Made by a program: the position numbers and the translations under genes. From Flammeovirgaceae bacterium (GTDB taxonomy: Bacteria; Bacteroidota; Bacteroidia; Cytophagales; Cyclobacteriaceae), in contig JAJTEH010000005.1 of assembly GCA_021298355.1 (NCBI GenBank), positions 62,001 to 126,000 on the forward strand: a stretch of DNA of 64,000 bases, in the 5' to 3' direction. Under the pieces are notes generated by a model. That model did not search any database. It saw only the letters and a program-made list of their open reading frames with translations, and was not told the DNA's origin. This document shows, in pieces, positions 9,664-27,275 of this stretch. Within the stretch, counting starts at the first letter, position 1, and each line of letters opens with the position of its first letter.

Positions 9664-10445
9664 GTTCGTTAACTAGTTTTGAAACCATACGTGCACTGTT
9701 AGTAGATGATGAAAAAGCTGTGCGATCTGCACTACGCGAAATTCTTCACCAAAATTTTCCTGCTATTCAGGTAGTTGGCGAGGCCGCCTCCATTCCCGAA
9801 GCAGTTAGAGAAATTCATACACACAATCCCACCCTAATTTTTTTGGATATTGAAATGCCCGGATATTCCGGTTTGCAATTAGTAGAGTTTTTCAATCCAC
9901 AAGAAATTAATTTCGATATCATTTTCGTTACCGCTTTTAACGAGTATGCTATTCAGGCATTTAAAATTTCAGCTTTTGATTACTTATTAAAGCCTGTAAA
10001 CACACAAGACTTAGAGCAAACCCTTAGCCGATATGCTGGAAAAGTACAGAAGCAAAAAATTGTAGAGCGTGTAAAATTGTTGAAAGAATCGTATACGCAT
10101 GAAAAGTTACCTGCACAAATAGCAGTAAGTTCTTCTCAGGGAATTGATTTTGTGCAATTGGAAAATATAATTGCACTTGAAGCGTCAGGCACATATACGA
10201 AAATACAATTAAAAGAAGGTTCGTCTATACTAGCCAGTAAACCTTTAGGTGAATTCGAAACCTTATTGCAAAATCACACGAGTTTTTTTAGAGCACATCG
10301 TTCATATATCATTAACTTGAAATACGTAAGAAAATTTTCTAATAAAGAAGGAGATGTGATTATACTTTTAAATGAGTTGGAAGTGCCACTTTCGCGTTAT
10401 CGCAAAAAGGAATTTGAGAGTGCCATTGCTGAGTTTAGAATTTAG
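9660..10445 (+). CDS. LytTR-type DNA-binding response regulator
   Basis: A 261-residue regulator partnered with the propeller kinase that overlaps it. The receiver domain (about 10-130) has the acidic pair in LLVDDEKAV, the phospho-acceptor Asp63 in FLDIEMPG, and the signalling Thr and Lys in FVTAFNEYA and DYLLKPV. The LytTR DNA-binding domain (about 155-258) shows the typical EASGTYTKI, FFRAHRSYIINL and PLSRYRKKEF pattern. It probably controls a small number of nearby genes for cell-surface proteins, but no target can be named from this window. Confidence 0.93.
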   Translation: MSSLTSFETIRALLVDDEKAVRSALREILHQNFPAIQVVGEAASIPEAVREIHTHNPTLIFLDIEMPGYSGLQLVEFFNPQEINFDIIFVTAFNEYAIQAFKISAFDYLLKPVNTQDLEQTLSRYAGKVQKQKIVERVKLLKESYTHEKLPAQIAVSSSQGIDFVQLENIIALEASGTYTKIQLKEGSSILASKPLGEFETLLQNHTSFFRAHRSYIINLKYVRKFSNKEGDVIILLNELEVPLSRYRKKEFESAIAEFRI

Positions 10446-10480
10446 TAAACGACTATTAATGATTAACAATTAACGAATAT

Positions 10481-11524
10481 TCACTTGTTAGCTAACTGCC
10501 CACAAGCGGCATCAATATCTTTACCACGACTCATGCGAATACGCGTGGTAATGCCATTGGCTTCCAGTAATTCCTGATACATGCGTAAGGCATCTGGGCT
10601 CGCCTGCTGAAAGGCAGGATCATCGATGTTGTTGTATTCAATGATGTTTACTTTGCTGGGAATCAACTGTGCGAACTTTAACAAGGCACGCGCGTCTTCT
10701 TCTTTATCGTTAATACCTTTCCAAACCACATACTCGTACGTTACTTTTCGTTTGGTTTGTTGATACCAATGTTTCATCGCATCGCCTAATTCTTCCAAAG
10801 GTGTGCTGTCGTTTATGGGCATGATAGACGAACGTGTTTTGTTAATAGCCGAGTGGAGGGAAACAGCTAGATTAAATTTTACTTTATCATCAGCAATTTT
10901 CTTAATCATTTTAGCCACACCAACAGTAGAAACCGTAATGCGTTTCCAGGCCATGCCCAACCCTTTTTGATCAGTAACTTTATGAATCGCTTCTAATACA
11001 TTGTTGTAATTGAGCAAAGGCTCGCCCATTCCCATAAATACAATATTAGTGAGCGGCCGATTAAAAAATAATTCTGCCTGATCACGAATGGCAACAATCT
11101 GGTCGTAAATTTCATCGGCACTTAAATTGCGCATGCGTTTTAAACGAGCAGTGGCGCAAAACTTACAAGCTAAACTACAACCTACTTGCGATGAAACACA
11201 AGCCGTAATTCTTTTCTCAGTAGGAATTAAAACAGACTCAACCACTAAACCATCGTGCAGCATCACAGCATTTTTGATGGTACCATCGTTGCTGCGCTGC
11301 ATTTTATCTACTTTAATGTGGTTGATAACAAAATGTTCCTTCAGCAACTCGCGCGTTTGCAACGAGAGGTTTGTCATTTGGTCGAAATCTTTGGCCGACT
11401 TTTGCCAAAGCCATTCGTATACTTGTTGTCCACGAAAAGGTTTATCGCCTTTGCCGGCAAAAAAACTTTTAAGTTCTTCCAGCTTTAATTTGCGAATATC
11501 CTTTTTTGTAATCTCCTCAACCAT
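10481..11524 (-). CDS. rlmN: Dual-specificity 23S rRNA A2503 / tRNA A37 methyltransferase RlmN
   Basis: A radical-SAM methylsynthase that installs 2-methyladenosine in 23S rRNA and certain tRNAs. The [4Fe-4S] ligands C116, C120 and C123 lie in GCSLACKFCATA. The two methyl-shuttling cysteines are also present: C109 in TACVSSQVGC and C341 in AACGQLANK. The family block FMGMGEPLLNYNNV is intact and the length (347 aa) is normal. The gene is convergent with the LytTR regulator. A perfect -7 type box (TACCTTTG, 11536-11529) lies four bases before the ATG, suggesting a leaderless or nearly leaderless mRNA. Confidence 0.97.
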   Translation of the reverse strand: MVEEITKKDIRKLKLEELKSFFAGKGDKPFRGQQVYEWLWQKSAKDFDQMTNLSLQTRELLKEHFVINHIKVDKMQRSNDGTIKNAVMLHDGLVVESVLIPTEKRITACVSSQVGCSLACKFCATARLKRMRNLSADEIYDQIVAIRDQAELFFNRPLTNIVFMGMGEPLLNYNNVLEAIHKVTDQKGLGMAWKRITVSTVGVAKMIKKIADDKVKFNLAVSLHSAINKTRSSIMPINDSTPLEELGDAMKHWYQQTKRKVTYEYVVWKGINDKEEDARALLKFAQLIPSKVNIIEYNNIDDPAFQQASPDALRMYQELLEANGITTRIRMSRGKDIDAACGQLANK

Positions 11525-11528
11525 GTTA

Positions 11529-11536
11529 CAAAGGTA
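11529..11536 (-). promoter_or_regulatory. Candidate -7 box of rlmN, four bases before the start codon
   Basis: Read on the minus strand, TACCTTTG matches the Bacteroidota -7 consensus TAnnTTTG and is followed by TAAC and the ATG. No clear -33 TTG is seen at the expected spacing. If active, transcription would start at or beside the A of the start codon. Confidence 0.45.
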
Positions 11537-11553
11537 AGCATTGCACGTTTCTT

Positions 11554-11991
11554 TTACTGAGGAAGTTTTTTAAAATATTTCTTGTCGCATGTACGATTAG
11601 CATCCGCTAAAATCATTTCAGAAACGGTTAATTCTTCGATGATATAAGATTGTATAATGGTTTTCGATTTTGGGTCGAGAATATCCAGCTGTTTATCGGT
11701 TATAGTGTAAACAAAGTTTTTATCGTTTACATCTTTACGCTTGCCTAAAATGCTTGTGCTTTGTTCGCCTTTATAATTGGTTTTAAACTGAATAACATCG
11801 GCCGTGCGATTTTTTCTGCTGTTCATTTCGGCCATTAATTCATCCATATCTTCAGTTTGATTGGGATTATCTAATTCACTTTCGATACACGAAGTTTGTT
11901 TCATCAATTGCCATTTTCCTACTAAGGATTGTGCCCATGCGGTTTGGCTAACCAACAGCGCTAAAAGAAAAATAAAAGTTTTCATTTTCAT
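11554..11991 (-). CDS. Small secreted lipocalin-like protein
   Basis: A 145-residue exported protein with a signal peptide (KTFIFLLALLVSQTAWAQ). The opening SLVGKWQLMKQ of the mature part is typical of the lipocalin-like lipoproteins common in Bacteroidota. Beta-strand patterns follow (VIQFKTNYKGE, FVYTITDKQLDIL, YIIEELTVSEMIL), and two cysteines (SC and TC) could form a disulfide. It has no lipobox cysteine. An in-frame ATG two codons downstream (11985) is an equally good start. It lies 29 bases upstream of rlmN on the same strand. Function unknown. Confidence 0.7.
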   Translation of the reverse strand: MKMKTFIFLLALLVSQTAWAQSLVGKWQLMKQTSCIESELDNPNQTEDMDELMAEMNSRKNRTADVIQFKTNYKGEQSTSILGKRKDVNDKNFVYTITDKQLDILDPKSKTIIQSYIIEELTVSEMILADANRTCDKKYFKKLPQ

Positions 11992-12144
11992 AAAATTTAA
12001 TGATTACTAAGGTAAACGGTTAAAAGTTGGGAAATGACACTTTTATCTGTATCCATCCCTAATAAATTTTAAGGAAAACATTCAAAATTCATGCCTTCCT
12101 GCTAACTTTTGGCTTTTCATGCCAAACAAAGCCAACGTTAAACC

Positions 12145-13392
12145 ATGAGGATAACGCATTTTTTACTTTCAATATTTCTTCTTTTAATGTTTTCGTGTAA
12201 AAAAACGATAGTAGAAGATGAGCAGTTTTTGCGCAACCTGATGGAAACTCAACGCGAGCAATTTGTGCAGGTACTAGATAGTGCAGATGTGTATGAGGTT
12301 CAAATCATTTACACACAGATTAACAGAGATGAAAAGAACATTCCAGCATTTAAATCTTTCTATTACAACTTCGATTCATCAAGGTATTTTTATCCTGCAT
12401 CCACCATTAAATTTCCGGCTGCCTTATTAGCTTTAGATAAACTAAACACTTTATCCATTCCGCATTTAGATAAGTTTACACCCATGCGCCATGATAGTGT
12501 GTATGCCGGGCAACTTAGTGTTTGGCAAGATACCACAAGCGAAAACTACATGCCATCTGTTGCACACTACATCAAAAAGATTTTAGTGGTTAGCGATAAC
12601 GATGCCTACAATAGGTTGTATGAATGGGTAGGTCCTGTTCCAGCCAATAATCGTTTGCGCGAGTTGGGGTATGCTTCAACACGAATGATACATCGATTAG
12701 AAAGACCTTTAACACCCGATGAAAACGCACATACAGAAGCCATTACTTTTTTTCAGAAAGATAAAATTGTTTACAAGCAAGAAGGTGGAGTATTTCCGGC
12801 ATATGTGCCAAAAGAAAAAATTCTACGAGGAAAAGGATTTATCAAAAATGATTCGTTGGTTAAACAGGCTTTTGATTTTTCATACAAGAATTTTTTTCCT
12901 TTACACGAACAACAAAATATGTTGAAAGCAATTCTCTTCCCTGAAAGCGTAATGGGCAGAAATTTTAATTTGACAAAAGAGGATAGAAAATTTCTTCTTC
13001 ACTATATGTCGCAACTGCCAACTGAAACCAGTTATCCACCTTACAATAAAGACACAACGTATTATACCGATGCGTATTGCAAGTTTTTCATGTTTGGCGG
13101 AAAAGGAGAGATGTCTGAAAACATTCGCATTTTTAACAAAGTAGGAGATGCCTATGGGTACTTATTAGATAATGCTTACATCGTAGATTTCGAAAATAAC
13201 ATTGAGTTTATGGTAACGGCTTATATCTTATGCAATAAAGATGAAGTTTTTAACGATGGTATATACGATTACGACAGGGTTGGATTTCCCTTCTTTAAGA
13301 ATTTAGGTCGTTTGCTTCATCACTATGAAATACAAAGACCAAGAAAAGTAAAACCCGATCTTTCAGCATTTAAAATTCAATACGATAATTAA
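12145..13392 (+). CDS. Beta-lactamase-fold serine hydrolase, lipoprotein
   Basis: A 415-residue penicillin-recognising-type serine hydrolase. The N terminus (FLLSIFLLLMFSCKK) is a lipoprotein signal. All three active-site motifs of the class A beta-lactamase fold are visible: S86-T-I-K89, S150-D-N152 in VVSDNDAYNRLYE, and K332-V-G334 in place of KTG, in NKVGDAYGYLLDNAY. It is longer than class A enzymes, with an insert between SDN and KVG. A true beta-lactamase is less likely than a wall-peptide hydrolase or carboxypeptidase. It is nine bases upstream of the DgcN-like gene and forms an operon with it and the epimerase, implying a role in peptidoglycan-derived peptide use. Confidence 0.8.
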   Translation: MRITHFLLSIFLLLMFSCKKTIVEDEQFLRNLMETQREQFVQVLDSADVYEVQIIYTQINRDEKNIPAFKSFYYNFDSSRYFYPASTIKFPAALLALDKLNTLSIPHLDKFTPMRHDSVYAGQLSVWQDTTSENYMPSVAHYIKKILVVSDNDAYNRLYEWVGPVPANNRLRELGYASTRMIHRLERPLTPDENAHTEAITFFQKDKIVYKQEGGVFPAYVPKEKILRGKGFIKNDSLVKQAFDFSYKNFFPLHEQQNMLKAILFPESVMGRNFNLTKEDRKFLLHYMSQLPTETSYPPYNKDTTYYTDAYCKFFMFGGKGEMSENIRIFNKVGDAYGYLLDNAYIVDFENNIEFMVTAYILCNKDEVFNDGIYDYDRVGFPFFKNLGRLLHHYEIQRPRKVKPDLSAFKIQYDN

Positions 13393-13400
13393 TTACTAGT

Positions 13401-14468
13401 ATGCAAAAAACAAACGCCATCGTAATAACAGGTGGATATTTAGACACCAGCAATGCTAAAACAGCTCATGGTTTAATTCGGGGTACCGACAGGTTTAATA
13501 TCCTTGGTATTATTGATCATAAACATGCAGGTAAAGATGCCGGTGAAATGTTAGACGGCAAAAAAAGGAACATCCCCATCTTTTCCTCTATATCAGATGC
13601 TGTAGAAAAAGTAAAAGATAAAATTCAATATGCCATAATTGGTGTGGCTACCAAAGGCGGAGTAATTCCGGAAAGTTTGCAATTGATGTTAAAAGAAGCG
13701 TTAGAAAATAACTTGAGCATCGTAAATGGATTGCACGACCATGTTTCCGATCATGAAGAGTTGGCGTCTTTAGCAAAAGCTAAAGGTTTGGAAATAATTG
13801 ATGTACGCAAACCCAAAAAATTTAAAGACTTACATTTTTGGTCGGGCAAAATTGCAGAAGTAAAATGTTTGAAAGTTGCCGTGTTAGGCACCGACTGTGC
13901 ATTGGGTAAAAGAACAACTACTCGCTTTTTAATGGAAGCCATGCAACAAGCAGGATATAAAGCAGAAATGATTTATACCGGCCAAACAGGGTGGATGCAA
14001 GGCGCGAAGTATGGATTTATCTTCGATTCTACCTTAAACGATTTTATTTCCGGAGAAATGGAACATGCCATCTGGCAATGTTACACAGAACAGAAACCGG
14101 ATGTAATTTTTATCGAAGGACAATCGTCTTTGCGTAATCCTAGCGGTCCGGCAGGTTCTGAATGGATTGTTTCAGCCGCAGCCGATGCGGTAGTATTGCA
14201 GCATAATCCGGCCAGAAAGCAATACAAAGACTTAGAGTTCTATCCTGCGTATATACCAGCGTTAAAAGAAGAGATAGAATTAATAAAAATCTATGGCGCA
14301 CCTACTATCGCCATCACCATCAACTCAGCCAAAATGACACCGGATGAAGCACGGAAAAGTGCTTCTCAATATGAAGCAGAACTTACTATCCCTACGGTAT
14401 TGCCATTAGAAGATGGATTGGATAAATTAATTCCGGTGTTGAAACAATGGATTGAAAGCAAGAAATAA
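13401..14468 (+). CDS. DUF1611 family protein, DgcN-like (D-glutamate metabolism)
   Basis: A 355-residue protein with an N-terminal Rossmann-like half (VITGGYLDTSNAKTAHGLIR) and a C-terminal P-loop half. The loop G163-T-D-C-A-L-G-K-R-T-T is a recognisable variant Walker A, and VIFIEGQSSLRNPSGPAG is the typical DUF1611 signature. Members called DgcN N-acetylate D-glutamate and work with the epimerase-fold partner DgcA, which here is the next gene, six bases downstream. The assignment to that reaction is by family and neighbourhood only. No signal peptide is present, so it acts in the cytoplasm. Confidence 0.82.
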   Translation: MQKTNAIVITGGYLDTSNAKTAHGLIRGTDRFNILGIIDHKHAGKDAGEMLDGKKRNIPIFSSISDAVEKVKDKIQYAIIGVATKGGVIPESLQLMLKEALENNLSIVNGLHDHVSDHEELASLAKAKGLEIIDVRKPKKFKDLHFWSGKIAEVKCLKVAVLGTDCALGKRTTTRFLMEAMQQAGYKAEMIYTGQTGWMQGAKYGFIFDSTLNDFISGEMEHAIWQCYTEQKPDVIFIEGQSSLRNPSGPAGSEWIVSAAADAVVLQHNPARKQYKDLEFYPAYIPALKEEIELIKIYGAPTIAITINSAKMTPDEARKSASQYEAELTIPTVLPLEDGLDKLIPVLKQWIESKK

Positions 14469-14474
14469 TTTACT

Positions 14475-15545
14475 ATGACAAAAATAAAAGACATAAAAGT
14501 ATGGAGTGCAGATTTAGGCAATCAACGTCCGTACACCATTGCTTTCAAAACTGTAGACGAAGTTCGAAATGCTTTTGTGCAAATAACGTTACAGAATGGT
14601 GTTATCGGATTAGGTTCTGGAAACCCCAGCGAATATGTGGTGGGTGAAAACCTTAATCAAACTTTACAAGCCTTAGATGCCAATAATTTAGATTTTTTGA
14701 TTGGAAGAAATATTCATGAGCTCAACCAACTTACTTACGAAGTTTGGCAGAAGTTTCCTAAAAATCCTGCGGCCAGAGCAGCATTAGATATTGCCTTACA
14801 CGATGCCTTTACCCAAACGTTAGGTATACCTTTAGTAAAATATTTTGGCAAGAAAATTTTTTCGATGCCAACTTCAAATACCATTGGTATCAAAAACGTA
14901 GAAGAAACATTGAAAGAAGCAAAAGAATTTATCGGGCTGGGCTTTTCTGTTTTAAAAGTAAAACTCGGTAAAAACCTGGAAGAAGATATTGAGCGAATGG
15001 TAAAGTTACGCGAAGTTTTTGGTAGTGAAATTGTTTTGCGGGTAGATGCTAACCAAGGCTATACGGTAAGCGAAACCATCGACTTCTATCATCGAACAAA
15101 AAAATTAAACATAGAATTGATAGAGCAGCCCCTTCCTGCAAAAGCAATTGAAGAAATGCGTTCTCTACCAGAAGAAATACGAGAAGTTATAGCAGCTGAT
15201 GAATCGTTAATTACTCCGCAAGATGCCTTGAGATTATTATCTCCTAAAAAAGCAGCCGGTGTTTATAACATTAAGCTGATGAAATGCGGTGGACCAAGTC
15301 AGGGAAATCAAATCGCCAACATTGCCCAATTAGCAGGAGTAGAATTATTTTGGGGATGCAACGATGAGAGTTTAATCAGTATTACAGCCGCTTTGCATTG
15401 CGCATTTTCAAGTTCGCAAACGAAGTATATCGATTTAGATGGAAGTTTAGATTTAGTGAACGATGTTGCGGCAGGTGGATTTATACTTAAAAACGGAATA
15501 ATGTCGTGTATTGAAAAGCCTGGGCTAGGCCTTTATTTAAAATAA
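14475..15545 (+). CDS. Enolase-superfamily dipeptide epimerase (L-Ala-D/L-Glu epimerase or DgcA-like)
   Basis: A 356-residue muconate-lactonising subgroup enzyme. The catalytic lysines K163 (in LKVKLG) and K267 (in YNIKLMKCGG) face each other across the barrel. The metal ligands D191 (RVDANQG), E217 (IEQPLP) and D242 (AADESL) are all present. The late GCNDESLISI and DLDGSLDLVND blocks resemble Ala-Glu epimerases, although the dipeptide-binding DxD region should be checked. It would racemise the glutamyl alpha-carbon of L-Ala-D-Glu or of N-acetyl-glutamate. Its partners immediately upstream are the DgcN-like protein and a serine hydrolase, and a SusC/SusD pair begins 111 bases downstream. Confidence 0.87.
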   Translation: MTKIKDIKVWSADLGNQRPYTIAFKTVDEVRNAFVQITLQNGVIGLGSGNPSEYVVGENLNQTLQALDANNLDFLIGRNIHELNQLTYEVWQKFPKNPAARAALDIALHDAFTQTLGIPLVKYFGKKIFSMPTSNTIGIKNVEETLKEAKEFIGLGFSVLKVKLGKNLEEDIERMVKLREVFGSEIVLRVDANQGYTVSETIDFYHRTKKLNIELIEQPLPAKAIEEMRSLPEEIREVIAADESLITPQDALRLLSPKKAAGVYNIKLMKCGGPSQGNQIANIAQLAGVELFWGCNDESLISITAALHCAFSSSQTKYIDLDGSLDLVNDVAAGGFILKNGIMSCIEKPGLGLYLK

Positions 15546-15551
15546 ATTGAA

Positions 15552-15595
15552 TCTCTTTATATTTTTCCTTCAATCTTTCGCTTATTGTAAAGAGA
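15552..15595. other. Inverted repeat in the epimerase-susC intergenic region
   Basis: TCTCTTTA (15552-15559) and TAAAGAGA (15588-15595) are exact reverse complements separated by 28 bases. There is no T-run after the second arm, so it is not a clear terminator. It could be a weak attenuator or an operator upstream of the SusC gene. Confidence 0.3.
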
Positions 15596-15656
15596 AAATG
15601 AAATAGTTAAGTTTTTTTTACGAAATTGTAACTGCTTTAAATCTAACCAACCAATT

Positions 15657-18600
15657 ATGCAGAGACAATTACTCATTGTATTATTGCTCCTGATCTCCGT
15701 TGTTACTCACGGTCAAGACAGAGTAGTAAGTGGCGTGGTGCGTGCAGCAGAAGATGGCACACCATTACCAGGAGTTAACGTAGTAGTAAAAGGCACCAAT
15801 ATCGGTACCACTACAGATGCCGAAGGAAATTACAAAATCAGTGTACCTTCTGGCTCCGAAACACTTTTGTTTTCATTTATTGGACTTCGCTCAGCCGAAG
15901 TAACAATAGGTGGAAGATCGATTGTAGACGTATCATTAGAATCAGACATAACACAACTTAGCGAAGTTGTTGTAGTTGGATACGGTACGCAAATCAAGCA
16001 AGACCTTACCGGTAATATTGCACGGGTTAAAGGTGATGAAATACGAAATCTTCCTGTACAAACATTCGAACAATCTATACAAGGTCGTGCGGCAGGTGTG
16101 TTTGTAGAAACCGGAAACGGTAAACTGGGTCAGGGAGTGAAAATGAGAATTCGTGGAGCATCATCGGTTACAGCTGATAACCAACCTTTATTTGTTGTAG
16201 ATAACTTCATTATTACAAACGAAAATCAATCAAGTGCCACTGCGGCCACAAACCCGTTAGTAGATATTAATCCGGCAGATATTGAATCCATCGAAATTTT
16301 AAAAGATGCATCTGCATCGGCTATTTATGGAGCAAGAGCTGCCAACGGTGTTGTTATTATTACAACAAAAAGAGGAAAAGCTGGGCGCACTTCGTTTAAT
16401 GTGGGCTATCAATCAGGTGTGAGCACAGAAACCAACCGCAGAGAATTTTTAAATACCGCACAGTATGTAGAATTGATGCGCGAAGCCGGAAAAGCATCCG
16501 GTCGTTTAGCGCGTATCGAATCTCGCTTAGATAGAAATGGCGCGGGGAACCGTAATTCCTGGGCCGACCCCTCTTCTCCCGAATATGTAAATACCGATTG
16601 GCAAGATCAGGTTTTTCAACGTGGTAAATTCGAACAGATAGATGTAAGTGCGGCAGGCGGTAACGATAAAACAAAAATGTATACCTCACTTTCTTACAGT
16701 GACCAAGAGGGTATTTTAATTGGAAACAGATTTAGAAGATTAACAGGAAGAATAAACCTGGATCATCAAGCTAACGACAAACTTACCTATGGTATAAATT
16801 TTAATCTTGCGCATTCAATCAACAACAGATTATCTGATGATAATGCCTTCTCAACTCCTATGCAGATTGTGGCGTTAATGCCCAACACGCCTGTAATAGA
16901 TCCACGAACAGGTTTGTTAAGCGGTCAGTTAGATCCAGACACAGGAACACCAAACAGCATCTTCCCATTATATTATAACCCTTTACTCGATGCTAAATTT
17001 AGTCAGCGCGAAACGCGTGTAATCCGAAATTTTGGTTCGGCCTATGCCGGTTATAAGATAACAGACAAACTAAATTTCAGAAGTGAGTTTGGATACGACC
17101 TTTTGTACCAACATGAAGAACGTTACTTCGGTCAGGAAACCAGCAGAAACAGCGGATTTCCGAATGGGTTTGGTACCGATGCATGGACCTCTGTTTTTAA
17201 CTATACACTCAACAACTTTTTTTCTTACAACACAGTGTTAAATAGTGAACATACTCTTGAAGTTATTGGAGGTATGTCTTACCAGGAAGAAAAAAGCGAT
17301 TTTGTAAATGTAGAAGGGCAACAATTCCCTAGCAATTCTTATAAAGAGTTAAACTCGGCAGCAGTAGTAACATTAGGAGAATCAGAAGAAGAACAATCAG
17401 TTTTTCTTTCATACTTTTCACGCGCCAATTACAAATTCCGCGATAAGTATTTATTATCTTTTAGCGGCCGTGTAGATGGTTCGTCTCGCTTTGGTCCGGG
17501 TAATCGCTTTGGTTTCTTCCCCGCTGTTTCTGCAGGATGGATTCTAACAGAAGAAGATTTTTTATCCGATGCCGGAACATTAGAATTTTTGAAATTCAGA
17601 GTTAGTTATGGGTTAACAGGTAACGCAGGAATTCCACCTTATGCCTCACGAGGTTTATTTTCAGGTAACGGAAGTTATGGCGGTATTGGTGGCGCTCGCC
17701 CCACACAGCTTGCTAACGATGACCTAAGATGGGAACAAACCGCGCAGTTAAATGTTGGTTTTGATTTTGGTTTCTTGAATAATAGAATTAATGGTGAAAT
17801 AGATTATTACGTAAAGAAAACTTCTGATTTAATTCTTAATGTTAACCTGCCTGGAACTGCAGGTATCCCCAATCAAATCAGAAATATAGGTAATATGGAA
17901 AACCGGGGTTTTGAATTCGTAATCAATTCAGAAAACCTGGTAGGTGAGTTTCGCTGGACAACCAGTTTAAACTACGCAAGAAACAGAAACAAAATCACCA
18001 ACCTGGATAACCAAGTTATAGAAGGCAGCTTCTTATCGCGTGCAGTTGAGGGCGAACCTATTGGTATTTTCTTCGGCCCACAATATGCAGGCGTTGATCC
18101 CGCCAATGGCGATGCACTTTACACAGTAATAAATGCTGATGGAACCCGCTCTACAACCAACGATGTAAACACGGCTACCTTAATGAAGGTAGGTGACCCT
18201 AACCCCGATTTTATTGCCGGTATGACCAACACCTTCAGCTATAAAGGTTTAGAACTATCAATTCTTTTTCAAGGTGTTTTTGGGTACCAGGTATACAACG
18301 GTGGTGGAAAATTTATGACGGCCAATGGCGATTTCTTCGATAACCAAACAGTAGACCAATTGCGCAGATGGCAAAACGTTGGCGATATTACCGATGTGCC
18401 ACAAGCCCGCTACTTGGGCGGTAACGGAACGGCAGAATCTTCTCGCTATGTGTATGATGCCGGATACCTTCGCCTAAAAACAGTAACGTTGGGCTATAAT
18501 TTACCTAAAGAAATTACAGGAAAAGCCAAACTTACAAGCGCACGTGTATATGTTAGCGCACAAAACTTGTTAACCTTTACCAATTACGAAGGTTGGGATC

Positions 18601-18707
18601 CGGAGGTAAATGCAGATACCTATGCCAGCAACATTAACCAAGGCATTGACTTCTACTCTGCACCACAACCCAAAACAATTACATTCGGTATCAATATCGG
18701 TTTCTAA
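15657..18707 (+). CDS. SusC/RagA-type TonB-linked outer membrane transporter
   Basis: A 1016-residue TonB-dependent transporter. In order it has a signal peptide (LLIVLLLLISVVTHGQ), a carboxypeptidase-regulatory-like domain (about 23-105), a TonB box region (LSEVVVVGYGTQ), a plug domain (about 110-240, with IRGASSV and ASAIYGARAANGVVIITTKRG), and a 22-strand-type barrel to the C-terminal ITFGINIGF. With SusD it imports large nutrients such as glycans or peptides across the outer membrane. No glycosidase or sulfatase is adjacent; the upstream neighbours are wall-peptide enzymes. The susD start follows the stop with no gap. Confidence 0.95.
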   Translation: MQRQLLIVLLLLISVVTHGQDRVVSGVVRAAEDGTPLPGVNVVVKGTNIGTTTDAEGNYKISVPSGSETLLFSFIGLRSAEVTIGGRSIVDVSLESDITQLSEVVVVGYGTQIKQDLTGNIARVKGDEIRNLPVQTFEQSIQGRAAGVFVETGNGKLGQGVKMRIRGASSVTADNQPLFVVDNFIITNENQSSATAATNPLVDINPADIESIEILKDASASAIYGARAANGVVIITTKRGKAGRTSFNVGYQSGVSTETNRREFLNTAQYVELMREAGKASGRLARIESRLDRNGAGNRNSWADPSSPEYVNTDWQDQVFQRGKFEQIDVSAAGGNDKTKMYTSLSYSDQEGILIGNRFRRLTGRINLDHQANDKLTYGINFNLAHSINNRLSDDNAFSTPMQIVALMPNTPVIDPRTGLLSGQLDPDTGTPNSIFPLYYNPLLDAKFSQRETRVIRNFGSAYAGYKITDKLNFRSEFGYDLLYQHEERYFGQETSRNSGFPNGFGTDAWTSVFNYTLNNFFSYNTVLNSEHTLEVIGGMSYQEEKSDFVNVEGQQFPSNSYKELNSAAVVTLGESEEEQSVFLSYFSRANYKFRDKYLLSFSGRVDGSSRFGPGNRFGFFPAVSAGWILTEEDFLSDAGTLEFLKFRVSYGLTGNAGIPPYASRGLFSGNGSYGGIGGARPTQLANDDLRWEQTAQLNVGFDFGFLNNRINGEIDYYVKKTSDLILNVNLPGTAGIPNQIRNIGNMENRGFEFVINSENLVGEFRWTTSLNYARNRNKITNLDNQVIEGSFLSRAVEGEPIGIFFGPQYAGVDPANGDALYTVINADGTRSTTNDVNTATLMKVGDPNPDFIAGMTNTFSYKGLELSILFQGVFGYQVYNGGGKFMTANGDFFDNQTVDQLRRWQNVGDITDVPQARYLGGNGTAESSRYVYDAGYLRLKTVTLGYNLPKEITGKAKLTSARVYVSAQNLLTFTNYEGWDPEVNADTYASNINQGIDFYSAPQPKTITFGINIGF

Positions 18708-20072
18708 ATGAATAAGAATATGAAAAGATTATTGTTAATACTGCCCATCGTGTTTGCTTCTGCTTGTGTAGACAAACTCGATATCGAAACATTAACGTCT
18801 GTTGATACAGACAAAGCCCTTAGAACATCTGCCGATGTTGAAGGGTTATTGGTAGGAGCATATGACGCATTGGGTGATCCGGATTTACTTGGCGGAAACC
18901 TGCAACGCGATTCTGAACTAATGGGAGATGCAGGTGAAATTTTCTGGGATGGCACTTTTGTTGCACCCGGAGAAATTTATAACAAAGCAATGCTTATTAC
19001 CAACGATCAGGCAAGAGCAACATGGCTAGACGGCTATTACTGCATTACTATTTGTAATCTGGTAATCAAAAATCTAAACCTTGTAACGGAAGACAGAAAA
19101 GAAAGAGTAGAAGCAGAAGCACGCTTTATACGAGGCTTAGTATACTTCGAATTAGTAAAAGTGTATGCCAGGACCTACACTGATGGTAATCCTGCTCAAA
19201 ATCCTGGTGTACCCATTGTAACAGAAGAGTCGGATCAATTTGCTAAAATACCACGAAGCACCGTACAGGCGGTTTATGATCTGGTCCTTAGCGATCTTAC
19301 CTTTGCTGCCACTAATCTCCCGGCAACAAATAACTTTTTTGCAACAACATATGCAGCAAGAGCTATTCTTTCCAGAGTTTATTTAATGCAAAACAATTAC
19401 TCTAACGCCCTTACCAACGCAAATGCTGTTTTGCAAAATACAGGCTTTACACTAACTGCAGATTTTGATGATGCCTTTAATAAAACCTGTTTACAAGGCA
19501 CCGACAGATCTAAAAATGGTAACGCTACCAAAGAAGATGTTTTCGCCATTCAGATAACAACCCAAGATGGTACCAATAACCTGAACACCTTTTTTGCTGA
19601 TGCTGGTTTTGGTGGTAGAGGAGATATTTTTATTGATCCACCACACTTTGCACTTTATGAAGATGGCGATGAACGTGCCGGATTGTTTTTCGATGACACC
19701 TACACTGCTAAATTCAACAATCAATTTGGTAATGTGCCAATAGTGAGATTAGCCGAAATGTATCTTACACGTGCCGAATGTAACTTCAGACTTGGTAGTT
19801 CTGTTGGAGCTTCACCTCTTGCTGACATTAACACCATTCGCGAAAGAGCAGACTTACCTCCTCTAACAACTATTTCTTCTCTAAGCCAAATACTTCGCGA
19901 ACGCAGATTGGAATTAGCTTTTGAAGGACATTTACTACACGACCTAAAAAGAACGCAAAGCAGCGTGGGGCCGTTGTACTTTGATAATCCATCTTTGATT
20001 TTTCCAATTCCGCAGAGAGAAATTCTAATCAATCCTGATCTGGAACAAAACGAAGCTTACACTAACAATTAA
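18708..20072 (+). CDS. RagB/SusD family nutrient-binding outer membrane lipoprotein
   Basis: A 454-residue surface lipoprotein that acts as a lid on the SusC channel. The signal ends in a lipobox (PIVFASAC). The SusD-like N-terminal domain and TPR-like helices follow (RVEAEARFIRGLVYFELVKVY, TTYAARAILSRVYLMQ), and the conserved C-terminal block IRERADLP, ILRERRLELAFEGHLLHDLKR and IFPIPQREI is intact. The start is placed at the ATG directly abutting the susC stop, though ATG at 18720 would give the same signal peptide. The substrate cannot be read from the sequence. Confidence 0.94.
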   Translation: MNKNMKRLLLILPIVFASACVDKLDIETLTSVDTDKALRTSADVEGLLVGAYDALGDPDLLGGNLQRDSELMGDAGEIFWDGTFVAPGEIYNKAMLITNDQARATWLDGYYCITICNLVIKNLNLVTEDRKERVEAEARFIRGLVYFELVKVYARTYTDGNPAQNPGVPIVTEESDQFAKIPRSTVQAVYDLVLSDLTFAATNLPATNNFFATTYAARAILSRVYLMQNNYSNALTNANAVLQNTGFTLTADFDDAFNKTCLQGTDRSKNGNATKEDVFAIQITTQDGTNNLNTFFADAGFGGRGDIFIDPPHFALYEDGDERAGLFFDDTYTAKFNNQFGNVPIVRLAEMYLTRAECNFRLGSSVGASPLADINTIRERADLPPLTTISSLSQILRERRLELAFEGHLLHDLKRTQSSVGPLYFDNPSLIFPIPQREILINPDLEQNEAYTNN

Positions 20073-20085
20073 TTGATTAATTAAT

Positions 20086-20442
20086 ATGAAAAAGATAATG
20101 ATAACATGCTTTGCACTCTCCCTACTCGTTTTGGGAAGTGCATGCGAAGATGACCCAACCGTAGTTAGAAGTAAAACACTAAATATTTTGTATTTCGGTG
20201 AAGAAGAGCCCTTCGTAGGTGATGATGCTATTTTTGAAGCTCCCTTATTTGTTTTAAACGATACGCGCGTATGGGAATGGAAAGCTTCTTTAAATGGCAC
20301 ACAAATATTAACCGGAGAAGGAGAGTATTTCGAATTTGTTTTTGAAGATGCAGGTGAATATACCATAACGTTAACCGAAGGAGACAGATCGGGTACCTTC
20401 ACGATTGAAGTAATAGATGAAGAATTTGAAGAAGAACTATAA
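20086..20442 (+). CDS. Small PKD-like lipoprotein of the SusCD operon
   Basis: A 118-residue protein with a lipoprotein signal (FALSLLVLGSAC) and a single immunoglobulin/PKD-like beta domain (VWEWKASLNGTQ, YFEFVFEDAGEYTITLTEGD). It ends in an acidic tail EEFEEEL. It sits 13 bases after susD and before a strong terminator, in the position where SusE/SusF-type surface-binding lipoproteins are found, but it is much smaller. A role as an accessory ligand-binding protein is inferred from position only. Confidence 0.7.
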   Translation: MKKIMITCFALSLLVLGSACEDDPTVVRSKTLNILYFGEEEPFVGDDAIFEAPLFVLNDTRVWEWKASLNGTQILTGEGEYFEFVFEDAGEYTITLTEGDRSGTFTIEVIDEEFEEEL

Positions 20443-20458
20443 TCTATTATAAAATGTT

Positions 20459-20490
20459 AAAACTGCCGGTGAAAGCCGGCAGTTTTGTTT
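20459..20490 (+). terminator. Rho-independent terminator of the SusCD operon
   Basis: An 11-bp perfect stem (AAAACTGCCGG, 20459-20469, with CCGGCAGTTTT, 20476-20486) has a six-base loop and a T-rich end. Its A-rich upstream side could also serve transcripts from the convergent minus-strand gene ending at 20525. Confidence 0.88.
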
Positions 20491-20524
20491 ATAAGTGACA
20501 GTAGGCAATAAATAAAAGTCGGCT

Positions 20525-21424
20525 TTAAAACTTGTAAATGATATAAGTGAGTGAGCCTGAAATAAAAAGTCCATCTAATGGGCGCACACCTGTTTCTAAA
20601 CTAAAAACACTATTGCCGAAAAAGGGTAATCTTCTTCCAAAATTCTGCTCTTTGGTAAACGGATTACGGTACCACTTAAAACCTACTCTTCCTCCTAGTA
20701 AACCATCTACTTCTTTTGTTGCTCCTCCCCCCAAACCAAAAGTATCTTGTTGCAGGTTAACCGATACAGGTAAAATCATCACATCTCCATATACCATAAA
20801 GATAGAGCCGGCACCAAAACCAACTGTTTCATTTCCTTTTTGCTTTTGCATTTTAAAAAAATATTGTCTTTCTCTACCAACGCCCAGATATATGCCCTTA
20901 TGAAAAATATTCTCAATGAAATAATCTGTCATTTCATCTTCTTTGTACTCAAAAGCAGAATTACGTAAGTAAATACCACCGCGCAAATACGTGTTCTTTC
21001 TTACCATTCCATTTACGTCCAGGTATTTAACGGTTGATGTGCGTGTGTTCGAATTTATGTTATCGGTTTCTTTATACCCTAAAATTATGCGAACCGGCCT
21101 AACCGCATCTTCACTTTTTAGTTTATATAAAATACCTGCATCGGTAGTAAAGGAAAAACCTTTCTTTTCAAATCGCAATAACGGAAAACGTACTAAACCC
21201 TCAGCAGAAATTTTTTCACTGATCGGATAACGAGCATTTACCCCAACGGCAAAAAGCATAGATCCTGATAAGTTTTTAAATCCGGCATCAACACCATAAA
21301 TCTCAACACCAACATGTCCTTTAATTACTTCATTGGGGTCCTCAAAAGTTTTTTGAAAAGTTTCTTGCGCTTGTATAGTTCCACTTATCAGAAGAGAAGT
21401 AAGAATTGTATAAATAGCTTTCAT
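20525..21424 (-). CDS. Predicted outer membrane beta-barrel protein, unknown function
   Basis: A 299-residue exported protein with a signal peptide (YTILTSLLISGTIQAQ). The mature part is a series of alternating-residue beta strands with aromatic girdles, and it ends in LFISGSLTYIIYKF, a typical barrel C terminus. No enzymatic motif is seen. Its start lies one base from the stop of another unknown exported protein (21426-22331) on the same strand, so the two are almost certainly cotranscribed and may act together at the envelope. Confidence 0.65.
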   Translation of the reverse strand: MKAIYTILTSLLISGTIQAQETFQKTFEDPNEVIKGHVGVEIYGVDAGFKNLSGSMLFAVGVNARYPISEKISAEGLVRFPLLRFEKKGFSFTTDAGILYKLKSEDAVRPVRIILGYKETDNINSNTRTSTVKYLDVNGMVRKNTYLRGGIYLRNSAFEYKEDEMTDYFIENIFHKGIYLGVGRERQYFFKMQKQKGNETVGFGAGSIFMVYGDVMILPVSVNLQQDTFGLGGGATKEVDGLLGGRVGFKWYRNPFTKEQNFGRRLPFFGNSVFSLETGVRPLDGLFISGSLTYIIYKF

Positions 21425-21425
21425 A

Positions 21426-22331
21426 TTATTTTCCTTCGTTAATCATGGTAGAAATAAAAGTTTTGGTAGCACCCGCTAATATTCCTTTCACTTCTTTTAA
21501 ATATTCATCCTGCGCTGCTTGTACCACATAAGCACTTCTTACCGAACCAAATAGATTGGTTTCTGAATTCGTTTCTTCAATACCGGATTTTATCCAAGAA
21601 GGGTTGCCGTACATGTGTTGCCCAGGAAACACCCACATGCCACCATTCGCATTGCTCCACATCATCATGGCACCTGCATCTAACAATGGTTTTCCTTCTA
21701 TGCGTGCCCCACCAAGTCGCGATCCATCAAACGCCATAAACGTTACATTTAATGCAATGGAAACAGCTTGTGCATCGAGGGCTTTGCAAAGTTTATTGTA
21801 CCAAATACCGGCCGTAACTTTAGAGTTGCGTACAGCAAATTTTCCAACCGGTCTAATGCTAACTACCTGATTGCCCAACTCTTTGTAGGGCGTGAGATCT
21901 TCTTTCACCCTACCAACAAATAATGATTCTGATTCTTTTTCTTCTGAGAAGAATTTGTTTTGGGCCACTTCATCGTCTGATAAAACTTCGTAGCCTTCGT
22001 CTTTCAATTGTTGAATGGCCAACGCATACACTTCTTGAACAATTTGCTGGTATGCTTTTGTATCGATACCACTTAAGCCAACTGTCATCTTCGCGAAGTT
22101 GGTACTTCCGGTTTGTTTGCCAACCGCAGTGATAACCTGATTGACTACGATGTCGGCAATAAAAATTCTTTTTTGTTTAGCGATGTCTTTTTTTCCACCA
22201 CCATTTCTGTATGAAAATGTTTTGGAGAAATCGTAAGTGTTCCAATCGATAAGGGTTTGCTCTTTTTTCTTTTGTGCTAACACACTAATGGTCATTAGCA
22301 TGCAGAGGAGAATCAGTTTAGGTTTTTTCAT
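21426..22331 (-). CDS. Secreted protein of unknown function
   Basis: A 301-residue exported protein (signal LILLCMLMTISVLAQ) that I do not recognise. After a lysine-rich start the body looks alpha/beta: RIFIADIVVNQVITAVGKQ, a helical YQQIVQEVYALAIQQLKDEGYEVLSDDEV reminiscent of CsgG/TolB-N-like envelope proteins, and a strand-rich second half (AVSIALNVTFMAFDGSRLGGARI). The likeness is weak and is not a family assignment. It is the first gene of a two-gene unit with the beta-barrel protein. Confidence 0.6.
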   Translation of the reverse strand: MKKPKLILLCMLMTISVLAQKKKEQTLIDWNTYDFSKTFSYRNGGGKKDIAKQKRIFIADIVVNQVITAVGKQTGSTNFAKMTVGLSGIDTKAYQQIVQEVYALAIQQLKDEGYEVLSDDEVAQNKFFSEEKESESLFVGRVKEDLTPYKELGNQVVSIRPVGKFAVRNSKVTAGIWYNKLCKALDAQAVSIALNVTFMAFDGSRLGGARIEGKPLLDAGAMMMWSNANGGMWVFPGQHMYGNPSWIKSGIEETNSETNLFGSVRSAYVVQAAQDEYLKEVKGILAGATKTFISTMINEGK

Positions 22332-22426
22332 AGTGTTGCTTTTTATAAAACAAAACTAGAGTAGCCCGAAACTGCATACCATACCATGCTGAGGGCAAAT
22401 TGTTCTACCCACCAGCACGGATATAC

Positions 22427-23047
22427 TTAACCGGAAAGGTTATTGGCAAAAGCAAATTTGATTAACCCAACCAACGAATTGGTTCCGGTTTTTCTGAATA
22501 TATTCTTCCTATGAGTTTCTACTGTTCTTTCGCTAATGAATAAGGATTCTGCGATTTGTTTGTTATTGTATTCCTGAGTAATTAAACGTAAAATTTCTTT
22601 TTCTCTTTCTGTTAGAAGTTTGCCTTCGTCAGGGTTGTCCATGTTCAGAATCATATGTTTGCTAATATCCTGGCTGAGATATATTCTTCCGGCATTTACT
22701 TCTTCAATAGCTTGCAGCAATTCTTTTTGTGTATCTTTTTTTAAGATGTAGGCGTTTACTCCGCTTTTCAGAATTTCTTTAGTAAGATGAATTTCTTCGT
22801 GCATGCTAAGGATGATAATTTTTATTCGTGGTAAGATGCGTTTTACTGTTTTGATAAACGACACTGCATCTAAACCAGGCATGCTATAATCTGTAATTAA
22901 TAAATCGGCTTCGTTTGTTTTAAACCATTGTAGAGCTTCATCTGCCGATTGCGCGGTATGAATCACTTTTACTAAGGGATGTTGAACCAATATGGCTTTT
23001 ACTCCGTCAATAATAATGGCGTGATCATCTACCAAAATAGTTCGCAT
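22427..23047 (-). CDS. NarL/FixJ-type response regulator
   Basis: A 206-residue regulator. The receiver domain begins directly at MRTILVDDHAIIIDG, with the phospho-acceptor Asp in LLITDYSMPG and the Lys in YILKKD. The C-terminal LuxR-type HTH is intact (LLTEREKEILRLI, NKQIAESLFISERTVETHRKNI). The frame extends upstream to 23101 but those 18 residues precede the receiver fold, so 23047 is the better start. The TPR histidine kinase lies immediately upstream on the same strand and is the obvious partner. Confidence 0.92.
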   Translation of the reverse strand: MRTILVDDHAIIIDGVKAILVQHPLVKVIHTAQSADEALQWFKTNEADLLITDYSMPGLDAVSFIKTVKRILPRIKIIILSMHEEIHLTKEILKSGVNAYILKKDTQKELLQAIEEVNAGRIYLSQDISKHMILNMDNPDEGKLLTEREKEILRLITQEYNNKQIAESLFISERTVETHRKNIFRKTGTNSLVGLIKFAFANNLSG

Positions 23048-23142
23048 GCGTATTTTTTTTGTGATAAAGTTCTGGAGTGAAAATAAACAATTTCTGTTCA
23101 TGCCCGAAAGTTAGGGCAGGTTCTGAGTTAAGAAAATCCGTG

Positions 23143-25128
23143 TTAGTGGGTATTTTCTTGTAATTCGGGTTTAGTTTGTTTAAAGGGTATTTGTAAAACA
23201 AGTGTTGTACCGTTTACAGTTGGTTTTGTATCTACATCTAGTGTAGCTTTTATAAGGTGCGCACGCGAAGAAATATTCTTCCACCCGAGCCCATTGGATT
23301 GTTGTAAATTAGAAACATCAAATCCTTTTCCGTTGTCTTCAATGGTTAGTATAATCTCAGTATCGCTTCTAACTAAATTAACTACAATAGAAGAGGCTTG
23401 TGCATATTTGATTATGTTATTCGTCCACTCTTGCACAATTCGATAAATAGATATTTCGAAAAGTTCGGATAGCCGTATATCCAGATCGAAGCTAACAACT
23501 TCCACGCGCAAGGTATGTGCATTTTCTATTCGCATAGCCATCTCTTTTAACGCAGGCACAATACCATTTTGTATGAGAGTTTGTGGCATAAGATTAAAAG
23601 CTACAGACCGCACTTCTTTATGCATGTCGTTAAGTACTTTTTCTGAAAGTTCAACAATTTTTATACGCTCGTCTGGTAATTTAGTTTGTTCAAGATTTCC
23701 TAGTAAAAATCTTAGCTCGGTAATTAATTGTCCAATGCCATCGTGTAAATCGCGCGATACTCTTTTTCTTTCTTCTTCTTGAGATTGTAAGGTTGCGTCT
23801 ATATAGGCTTCGCGTATCGCTACTTGTTTTTCCTTTTCTAAAAGAATGGTTTTTCTTTTAAACCTATTTCTAGCAAGAATATAGAATCCCGTTATTAAAA
23901 CTAACAGTAATAATACACCCAAAAGGAAGGCGTAACTTTTATTGAGTTTATTTTGCTGAGTAAGAATTTCAATTTCTTGTTTGGCTAACTGAACATCTTT
24001 CTTTTCTGCTTCAAATTGAATGAGTAATTTATTAACTGTTTCTTTTGTAGTTAGATTGAGGAGTGTATCTTTTACTTCTGCAAATTTTTTAAAACTTTCT
24101 AGTGCTTGAAGTGGCCTGCCGGTTTCTTCGTATAACTGAGCTAAGTTTTGCCAAACTTTTTGCTCTTCAACTTTTAAAGGATTTCGTTTGAGAGAATCCA
24201 ACGCTATTGTAAGGTATTGCTCTCCGAGTTTATAATTTTTTTGTTTGGTATAAGCACTACCCAGATTGATCAAACTTGAAATATATCCTTGCTTGTCGTT
24301 TAATTGTTGGCGCAAAAGCAAAGCCTTCTTATTGTTTTCAATACCTTTCTGTACATGATTTTGCATTGTAAATACTTCTCCGAGGTTATGATAAGCCACA
24401 GCGCAATACTGAGGAGATTGTTTTTCATTTAAAACAGATAAGGATTTTTGCCAATACCAAATGGCGCTGTCATACTGATTTGTTTTTTGAAAAATATTAC
24501 CAATGTTAATTAGCGAAATGCCATAACTCTCAGATATATTATTTTTTAAGGCAAGGTGTAAAGATTTCTTATGGTATACCAAAGCTTGTTGGTACTCTTG
24601 CTGATGCTCCAAAACAGCAGCCATATTGTTTAACGCGTTGGCTTGGCCTTGTATATGATTTAACTTTTCGAATGCTTGCAGAGCTTTGGTTTGGCTTTCG
24701 AAGCTTTTTGAATAGTTACCTTGTTTAAAATAAGCTGCACCTAATTTAATGTTCAAAGAAGCCACACCTGCTAAATCACGGATAGATGCGCGAACGTTCT
24801 GTGCTTCTTCCCATAAGGTTATTGCCATTGGTAAATCAGCTTTATAAAAATAGGCAACACCTAAATCGCTTAGCGCTAACCCTAACCCCTTTTGATAGTT
24901 TATTTTTCTGGCCAATGCAATTGCTTCGTTGCCATAATAAATGGCAGAGTCTTGTTGTTGGAGTGTTAGGGTATAACATAACTCATCCAAAACCTTTACC
25001 CGCATTGTGTCGGGTATCGTTTTATTCAGTAAAAGTTTTTGCAAACTATCTTTTGGGTTAGCAACGGATAAAAGTGGGATAACGAATAAAACAGAAAAGA
25101 CAATTCTGTTCAGTAGAAAAGTAAACAT
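23143..25128 (-). CDS. TPR-containing sensor histidine kinase (NarX/HisKA_3 type)
   Basis: A 661-residue sensor. A signal peptide or anchor (SVLFVIPLLSVANP) is followed by about eight tetratricopeptide repeats on the periplasmic side (for example GNYSKSFESQTKALQ, NYKLGEQYLTIAL). Then come a coiled coil, one transmembrane helix (YAFLLGVLLLLVLITGFYIL) and a HisKA_3 kinase with the phospho-acceptor His in SRDLHDGIGQL. The ATPase part keeps WTNNIIKYA and DNGKGFD. Its cognate NarL-type regulator is 95 bases downstream. A perfect palindrome lies just upstream of the start (25134-25149). Confidence 0.92.
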   Translation of the reverse strand: MFTFLLNRIVFSVLFVIPLLSVANPKDSLQKLLLNKTIPDTMRVKVLDELCYTLTLQQQDSAIYYGNEAIALARKINYQKGLGLALSDLGVAYFYKADLPMAITLWEEAQNVRASIRDLAGVASLNIKLGAAYFKQGNYSKSFESQTKALQAFEKLNHIQGQANALNNMAAVLEHQQEYQQALVYHKKSLHLALKNNISESYGISLINIGNIFQKTNQYDSAIWYWQKSLSVLNEKQSPQYCAVAYHNLGEVFTMQNHVQKGIENNKKALLLRQQLNDKQGYISSLINLGSAYTKQKNYKLGEQYLTIALDSLKRNPLKVEEQKVWQNLAQLYEETGRPLQALESFKKFAEVKDTLLNLTTKETVNKLLIQFEAEKKDVQLAKQEIEILTQQNKLNKSYAFLLGVLLLLVLITGFYILARNRFKRKTILLEKEKQVAIREAYIDATLQSQEEERKRVSRDLHDGIGQLITELRFLLGNLEQTKLPDERIKIVELSEKVLNDMHKEVRSVAFNLMPQTLIQNGIVPALKEMAMRIENAHTLRVEVVSFDLDIRLSELFEISIYRIVQEWTNNIIKYAQASSIVVNLVRSDTEIILTIEDNGKGFDVSNLQQSNGLGWKNISSRAHLIKATLDVDTKPTVNGTTLVLQIPFKQTKPELQENTH

Positions 25129-25133
25129 ACAGA

Positions 25134-25149
25134 GAGTTTAGGTAAACTC
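25134..25149. promoter_or_regulatory. Perfect palindrome upstream of the TPR kinase
   Basis: GAGTTTA-GG-TAAACTC is an exact inverted repeat of two 7-base arms, ending five bases before the kinase start codon. It could be an operator for autoregulation or a small RNA hairpin covering the start. Confidence 0.35.
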
Positions 25150-25217
25150 AATTTAGAACTATGTTTTGAATTAATCGAGATTAAGTTTGCTATTCCATCT
25201 AAGGAAAGCCAAGAAAT

Positions 25218-26168: not shown

Positions 26169-26169
26169 C

Positions 26170-27186: not shown

Positions 27187-27275
27187 TTATTGTAAGTCGA
27201 AAGGTATTCATTATTCAAGTAAAGGCCATCTTTTGGGGCAAAAGCGATTGATTTTCAGAAATTTTTAATCTGGGT

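Follow-up and report, generated by a model that had tools for sequence, protein, structure and literature searches.

Dipeptide epimerases of the enolase superfamily include, among solved structures, the L-Ala-D/L-Glu epimerases of Bacillus subtilis (1jpm) and Bacteroides thetaiotaomicron (3iji/3ijq) and an enzyme of Methylococcus capsulatus (3rit/3ro6) that is named in the title of entry 3rit as a dipeptide epimerase with L-Arg-D-Lys. To our knowledge, most dipeptide epimerases have no known physiological substrate. A racemase/epimerase gene of the same superfamily adjoins a DUF1611-type gene in the DgcN-DgcA route of D-glutamate metabolism, which is described for Shewanella in passages of PMC10845958; passages of PMC12363236 name dgcN, reported there from Bacteroidetes, as the key gene of a pathway that irreversibly racemizes acidic D-amino acids and their amides. 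A further described system is the SusCD/RagAB type of importer. In passages of PMC11817032, RagAB is implicated in protein uptake, four alleles are distinguished and horizontal transfer is discussed. Here we compare with these systems a locus at positions 12145 to 20442 of a 64,000-nucleotide stretch, called the window, from a Flammeovirgaceae bacterium (GCA_021298355.1, contig JAJTEH010000005.1). The genome carrying it comprises 3.6 Mb in 82 contigs and is 97.29% complete. The locus encodes a serine hydrolase, a DUF1611 protein and an epimerase, followed by a SusC/SusD pair, and a first-pass annotation had proposed that all its genes serve together in the scavenging of wall peptides.

Results

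The locus probably consists of two units

Positions 12145 to 20442 hold six plus-strand open reading frames (ORFs), with gaps of 8, 6, 111, 0 and 13 bases between them. The six genes and the first three gaps had been given in the first-pass annotation, and all were reproduced. The region is composed of two units, the enzymes at 12145 to 15545 and SusC/SusD with a small lipoprotein at 15657 to 20442:

12145 to 13392, plus strand: predicted lipoprotein serine hydrolase with a class A beta-lactamase / PBP-A fold (415 amino acids; Pfam Beta-lactamase2, motifs, model)
13401 to 14468, plus strand: DUF1611 protein with a Rossmann-like N part and a P-loop C part, distant relative of DgcN (355 amino acids; PF07755, PF17396)
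14475 to 15545, plus strand: predicted dipeptide epimerase of the enolase superfamily, nearest to the M. capsulatus L-Arg-D-Lys enzyme (356 amino acids; MR_MLE, 3rit match)
15546 to 15656, no strand: 111-base gap; the DNA match to the sister genome drops just before it, in the last ~60 bases of the epimerase gene
15657 to 18707, plus strand: SusC/RagA-family TonB-dependent receptor, judged to lie outside the enzyme module (1016 amino acids; TIGR04056)
18708 to 20072, plus strand: SusD/RagB-family surface lipoprotein, partner of SusC (454 amino acids; PF07980, PF14322)
20086 to 20442, plus strand: small PKD-like lipoprotein behind SusD (118 amino acids; PKD match below cutoff)

Pfam and NCBIfam models bore out in outline the families first assigned to the hydrolase, the DUF1611 protein, the enolase-superfamily enzyme, SusC and SusD. 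For the last gene, a PKD match exists, but at 18.6 bits it is below the cutoff of 23.5. We think it probable that the two units are unrelated and merely stand side by side, the first being a long-kept module that salvages dipeptides containing a D residue.

The DUF1611 and epimerase genes form a conserved pair

The DUF1611 protein was scanned against GTDB genomes, which yielded 66 loci; because the scan was built on short peptide patterns, close relatives are over-represented. Bacteroidota labels were found on 65 of the 66, the exception (L067) being labeled Thalassobius. In a second sample, comprising 295 genomes of the class Bacteroidia, a DUF1611 protein above the cutoff was present in 16, the window genome among them. 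The 15 other regions were fetched (three are the same contigs as loci L018, L023 and L049), and five ORFs on each side of the DUF1611/epimerase pair were listed. The genus sample consisted of four other genomes (G001 to G004), of which G004, with locus L002, is the nearest sister.

The epimerase gene lies 3' of the DUF1611 gene on the same strand in 62 of the 64 testable loci (all but L061 and L062), and the order therefore goes beyond chance. In 50 of these 62 loci, the two genes are separated by a computed gap of no more than 150 bases. Within the class regions, an epimerase ORF adjoins DUF1611 in 10 of 15 and lies two ORFs off in another two (L089 and L090). In 31 of 63 testable loci, a hydrolase gene precedes the pair by at most 500 bases; 55 of the 66 loci also contain rlmN. 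Of the proposed wall-peptide locus of six genes, the first three thus stand as a conserved module, with the hydrolase in about half of the loci; the tie to SusCD does not stand, as shown below.

A few loci depart from the usual layout. In the congener G003 (L066), a Tricorn-type S41 protease gene (11154 to 14411) lies between the DUF1611 and epimerase genes. A small ORF of 99 to 103 amino acids, resembling a RelE/ParE-type toxin by inspection only, occupies the same place in L037, L040, L041, L045, L055 and L056. The Thalassobius-labeled (Alphaproteobacteria) contig L067 carries the pair at 9989 to 12180; its epimerase groups among those of Bacteroidota, so that either mis-binning or transfer may be involved.

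The epimerase is closest to an L-Arg-D-Lys enzyme

The epimerase matched the Pfam MR_MLE C part (4.3e-41) as well as the N part, and its structure was predicted with confidence (mean pLDDT, 93.1). Its counterpart in the cultured relative Chryseotalea sanaruensis is 76% identical. Residues K161, K163, D191, E217, D242 and K267 show no variation across all 61 rows of the alignment, and the five solved relatives included in it carry them too. We take K161 and K163 to be the KxK motif, K267 to be the second catalytic lysine, and D191, E217 and D242 to be metal ligands. A DxD motif (D320-L-D322), which presumably binds the N terminus of the dipeptide, occurs in 61 of 61 rows; it is shared with 3rit, 3jva, 1jpm and 2zad and missing from the N-succinyl Arg/Lys racemase 2p88. 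At position 297, D occurs in 57 rows and in 3rit and E in 4 rows, and we attach no claim of specificity to it.

The sequence scored 353.9 bits against 3rit and 175.8, half as much, against 1jpm, and the model matched the two structures with Z scores of 52.4 and 46.0, respectively. In a tree with the five solved relatives, 70 rows including the window enzyme joined 3rit (support 98/99), apart from 1jpm, 3jva, 2zad and 2p88; several long branches in this tree were flagged by the tree program's warning. Over its full length the window enzyme is 49 to 50% identical to the M. capsulatus protein and shares with it the catalytic residues, the DLD motif and a GCxDES stretch, whereas some aligned residues in the pocket region differ, such as K25, which is R in 3rit. 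The L-Ala-D/L-Glu epimerases have the same fold, and 1jpm also has the metal ligands and the DxD motif; however, they are only ~31% identical to the window enzyme, and 1jpm has M-I where the window family has N-D/E. Both L-Ala-D/L-Glu equivalog models were missed (NF041118, 212.5 of 500 bits; NF011708, 81.2 of 343). By sequence and predicted structure, then, this is a putative dipeptide epimerase whose closest relative is the M. capsulatus L-Arg-D-Lys enzyme and not the L-Ala-D/L-Glu epimerases. The passages returned by a literature search included none on this epimerase group.

The DUF1611 protein is a distant relative of DgcN

The DUF1611 protein matched both Pfam models of its family, PF07755 in the C part (3.1e-60) and PF17396 in the N part (7.4e-26). 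Eight positions of its P-loop, GTDCALGKRTT, are invariant in 65 rows (G163, D165, C166 and G169 to T173). In the DgcN-DgcA route proper, the DUF1611 protein would N-acetylate D-Glu and the enolase-superfamily enzyme would racemize N-acetyl-D-Glu. This route would account for the adjacency of the same two superfamilies, it agrees with the report of dgcN in Bacteroidetes in passages of PMC12363236, and three of the 15 class regions encode Amidohydro_3 proteins next to the pair. However, the window proteins reached only 149.5 of the 480 bits required by the NCBIfam DgcN equivalog and 126.7 of the 400 bits required by that of DgcA, and an identity as DgcN or DgcA was dropped on these grounds. Moreover, the window epimerase bears the DLD motif of its family, which is common to four solved dipeptide epimerases and not found in 2p88. 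We therefore regard the DgcN-DgcA route as improbable here.

The first-pass annotation had held that enzymes of these families act on D-Glu derivatives or on L-Ala-D-Glu. The general part of this claim is sound, as the families handle dipeptides or D-amino acids; the particular part sits poorly with an epimerase nearest 3rit and far below the DgcA cutoff. On the evidence of sequences and models, L-Ala-D-Glu and N-acetyl-D-Glu are weakened as candidate substrates.

The lipoprotein hydrolase has a predicted DD-peptidase-like fold

The hydrolase matched Pfam Beta-lactamase2 (6.5e-16), and its SxxK (S86, K89), SDN (150 to 152) and KxG (K332, G334) motifs are invariant across 30 rows. Cys18, at the place of the lipobox, is kept in at least 90% of these rows, as is an R-L-E-R stretch with E186, which may or may not be in register with the deacylating omega-loop Glu of class A beta-lactamases. 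The predicted model matched class A beta-lactamase-like chains with Z scores of 20.9 to 22.5 (50 rows shown, mostly tied), PBP-A among them at 21.6. The protein failed the NCBIfam cutoff for class A beta-lactamases (24.3 versus 200 bits).

A DD-peptidase-like fold such as that of PBP-A, among the tied matches of the lipoprotein model, would also suit a module that recycles the cell's own wall, specific for L-Ala-D/L-Glu, with neither a scavenging role nor a link to SusCD. The long-kept place with rlmN and the presence of an LdcA-family gene in the window genome are in line with this explanation. Against it stand the nearest solved relative, an L-Arg-D-Lys enzyme that leaves the L-Ala-D/L-Glu epimerases well behind, and the scores far below cutoff with both L-Ala-D/L-Glu equivalog models. 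The Mpl matches in the window genome, all below the cutoff (best, 165.1 of 388.7), count little, as this is a weak test that only 1 of 14 control genomes passes. We consider such a recycling module rather unlikely.

Neighbors of the pair in other genomes

Selected neighborhoods contain further genes for peptide or amino acid turnover; these cases, including the protease mentioned above, were picked from loci most of which have none of them. In the class regions L088 and L091, where no epimerase ORF was listed, the genes that come after DUF1611 encode an alanine/ornithine-racemase-type protein and a VanX-like dipeptidase. The racemase-type protein of L091 reached 380.6 of 480 bits with the Orr model, and its L088 counterpart was named by inspection; the VanX-like protein of L091 is above the Pfam M15 cutoff, and those of both regions are below the NCBIfam cutoffs. 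A beta-lactamase/D-aminopeptidase-like domain fused to an Amidohydro_3-type domain is encoded directly upstream in L096 and, in L101, divergently behind an Lrp/AsnC-type gene, while in L102 the epimerase gene shares a 4-base overlap with a gene for an Amidohydro_3 protein. The Amidohydro_3 family includes N-acyl-amino-acid deacylases. The best NCBIfam match of these proteins, below the cutoff, is PRK09061, which we take to be the model named elsewhere as D-glutamate deacylase and which would favor a D-Glu reading. Five loci (L043, L044, L048, L051 and L065) encode, upstream and divergently, a PBP4B-like protein whose GH3 part is weak, and an amidase-family gene follows the epimerase, not always directly, in seven loci; one representative of each group was scanned. 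Together, these neighbors suggest a salvage of D-residue peptides, wall-derived or other, and do not single out L-Ala-D-Glu.

The SusC/SusD unit is not tied to the enzymes

SusC carries SusC-type Pfam domains and scored 858.7 bits with the NCBIfam SusC/RagA model TIGR04056 (cutoff, 368.25), and SusD was above the cutoff for both SusD_RagB (PF07980, 1.1e-24) and SusD-like_3 (PF14322, 2.7e-24). The adjoining SusC-family receptor and SusD-family lipoprotein identify a SusCD importer, which resembles SusCD and RagAB systems in its families, gene order and trailing small lipoprotein. It differs in that its three genes include no glycosidase or peptidase and in that it has no conserved tie to the enzymes.

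Of the 56 loci in which the sequence extends for 1 kb or more 3' of the epimerase, one, the sister L002, has a SusC match within 6 kb; 49 of the 55 negatives have at least 6 kb. In the ORFs listed for the 15 class regions, five on each side, no SusC occurred beside the DUF1611/epimerase pair, and in L095 a 235-amino-acid ORF beyond rlmN matched part of SusC only. The small lipoprotein had no tblastn match at an E value of 1e-4 in any of the 66 loci. The six genes together, whose joint conservation had been named as a check, were found in no locus; the sister came closest, with the first five in the same order.

Among the other genomes of the genus, the SusC proteins closest to that of the window are 66% (G002), 56% (G004) and 54% (G001) identical to it. 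In G002 and G001, and more distantly in G003 (40% and 36% in two comparisons), a SusCD pair lies away from the enzymes and adjoins a 627-amino-acid purF-like gene that is flanked on the far side by nuo-like genes (all named by inspection). Separation of SusCD from the three enzymes in relatives, which the first-pass annotation had named as speaking against its proposal, is thus found in three congeners. The purF-like gene is also present in the window genome and in G004, where the 14 kb fetched around it contained no ORF matching SusC or SusD.

The two units also differ in their divergence from the sister L002: the enzymes are 92 to 95% identical at the protein level, SusC is ~54% and SusD ~39%. 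The binned DNA identity is 90% and 85% up to 15480, 63% at 15481 to 15540 and 40% at 15541 to 15600, so that the match drops off before the epimerase gene has reached its 3' end; a match of 90% resumes at 27241, by ribosomal-protein genes. At the start of susC the identity is ~60 to 78% in most bins. A long blastn match into susC had raised an in-place swap of the SusC barrel alone, which was dropped because identity already falls in the 3' end of the epimerase gene. Within the genus, the stretch between the epimerase and ribosomal-protein genes resembles a hot spot of exchange, and SusCD exchange at a fixed site would have a parallel in the RagAB alleles and transfer discussed in passages of PMC11817032.

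Over the whole of 15480 to 27240, the window matches L002 (~12080 to 18800) poorly and differs in gene content too, with flanks of ~90 to 93%. Past the SusCD block, at 20525 to 22331, two minus-strand ORFs (299 and 301 amino acids) have no Pfam family above the cutoff. The sister SusC gene (L002, 12266 to 15241) has an in-frame TAA at codon 70, and SusD of G002 (L082, 7737 to 9054) is split into two overlapping ORFs by a frameshift or an assembly error; both are draft genomes, and sequence error may account for the broken ORFs.

According to the first-pass annotation, SusCD would import muropeptides or D-Glu peptides, the lipoprotein would cut them, and the DUF1611 protein and epimerase would convert L-Ala-D-Glu or D-Glu. 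The common strand, the 111-base gap and the same position of SusCD in the sister are in its favor. A search of the window genome with the epimerase gave one other match, MenC-like by inspection and beside a queA-like gene, and so no second dipeptide epimerase was found; the LdcA-family gene and the VanX-like genes after DUF1611 in two class regions can be counted for it as well. On the other side are the single downstream SusC among 56 loci, the SusCD relatives by the purF-like gene in three congeners, a sister SusC that is far more diverged than the enzymes and carries a stop codon (in a draft), and the relationship of the epimerase to the L-Arg-D-Lys enzyme. A whole-word literature search found nothing relevant linking SusC/SusD with peptidoglycan or muropeptides. 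A single unit of SusCD plus enzymes was dropped on conservation, placement and divergence; we hold the model to be very unlikely, and the SusCD pair is most likely a chance neighbor of the enzyme module.

Discussion

The observed gene order, conservation, families, catalytic residues and nearest solved relatives suggest a pathway. Its substrate, the direction in which it runs, where each step takes place and what DUF1611 does are our proposal, as follows. The lipoprotein serine hydrolase, with its DD-peptidase-like fold, would act outside the inner membrane and trim peptides that contain D-amino acids or stem from the wall. Dipeptides would enter through a transporter encoded elsewhere, and the epimerase, in the cytoplasm, would invert one residue, allowing ordinary dipeptidases to cleave the dipeptide. 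By analogy with DgcN, the DUF1611 protein may modify the dipeptide or the freed D-amino acid. The second unit would be a SusC/SusD importer of the ordinary outer-membrane kind, sitting in an exchangeable stretch that separates the epimerase gene from the ribosomal-protein genes.

A narrower version of the pathway would be devoted to dipeptides with cationic D residues (Arg, Lys or Orn), the DUF1611 protein being an N-acyl (or aminoacyl) transferase of new specificity for the D-amino acid or dipeptide. It is suggested by the clade that joins the epimerase with the L-Arg-D-Lys enzyme and by L088 and L091, where DUF1611 is accompanied by ornithine/alanine-racemase-type and VanX-like genes. We think this version doubtful.

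Several observations weigh against a separate, long-kept salvage module. The hydrolase gene is missing upstream in 32 of 63 loci, and a window-type hydrolase was found in only 1 of the 15 class regions (L095); the trio is therefore not obligatory. Two of the 64 loci lack an epimerase after DUF1611, as do three of the 15 class regions (L088, L091 and L098), and L098 also lacks the racemase/dipeptidase pair. The tree places the class-level epimerases of L089, L090 and L092 outside the 3rit group, and an identity of 49 to 50% to 3rit is too little to transfer specificity. As for SusCD, both the window and the sister have it behind the epimerase and on the same strand, and a SusC tree of six rows groups these two (support 91/96), so that the pair may have been placed beside the epimerase once, in an ancestor, with some local function; replacement or fast change after such a placement is possible. 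Finally, the gap at 15546 to 15656 contains no match to a Bacteroidetes-type promoter, and thus read-through from the epimerase into SusCD may occur; promoter- and terminator-like sites at the locus were not above shuffles.

Salvage of D-residue dipeptides by the enzymes, with SusCD as an unrelated neighbor, remains the explanation that we favor, and it carries a caution: enzyme genes closely spaced with SusCD in a single genome are not enough to define a utilization locus. DUF1611 is still a domain of unknown function in Pfam, and DgcN is the one assigned member that we met in this analysis. A conserved Cytophagales pair, with dipeptidase, racemase or amidohydrolase neighbors in some relatives, narrows the candidate substrates down to a short list.

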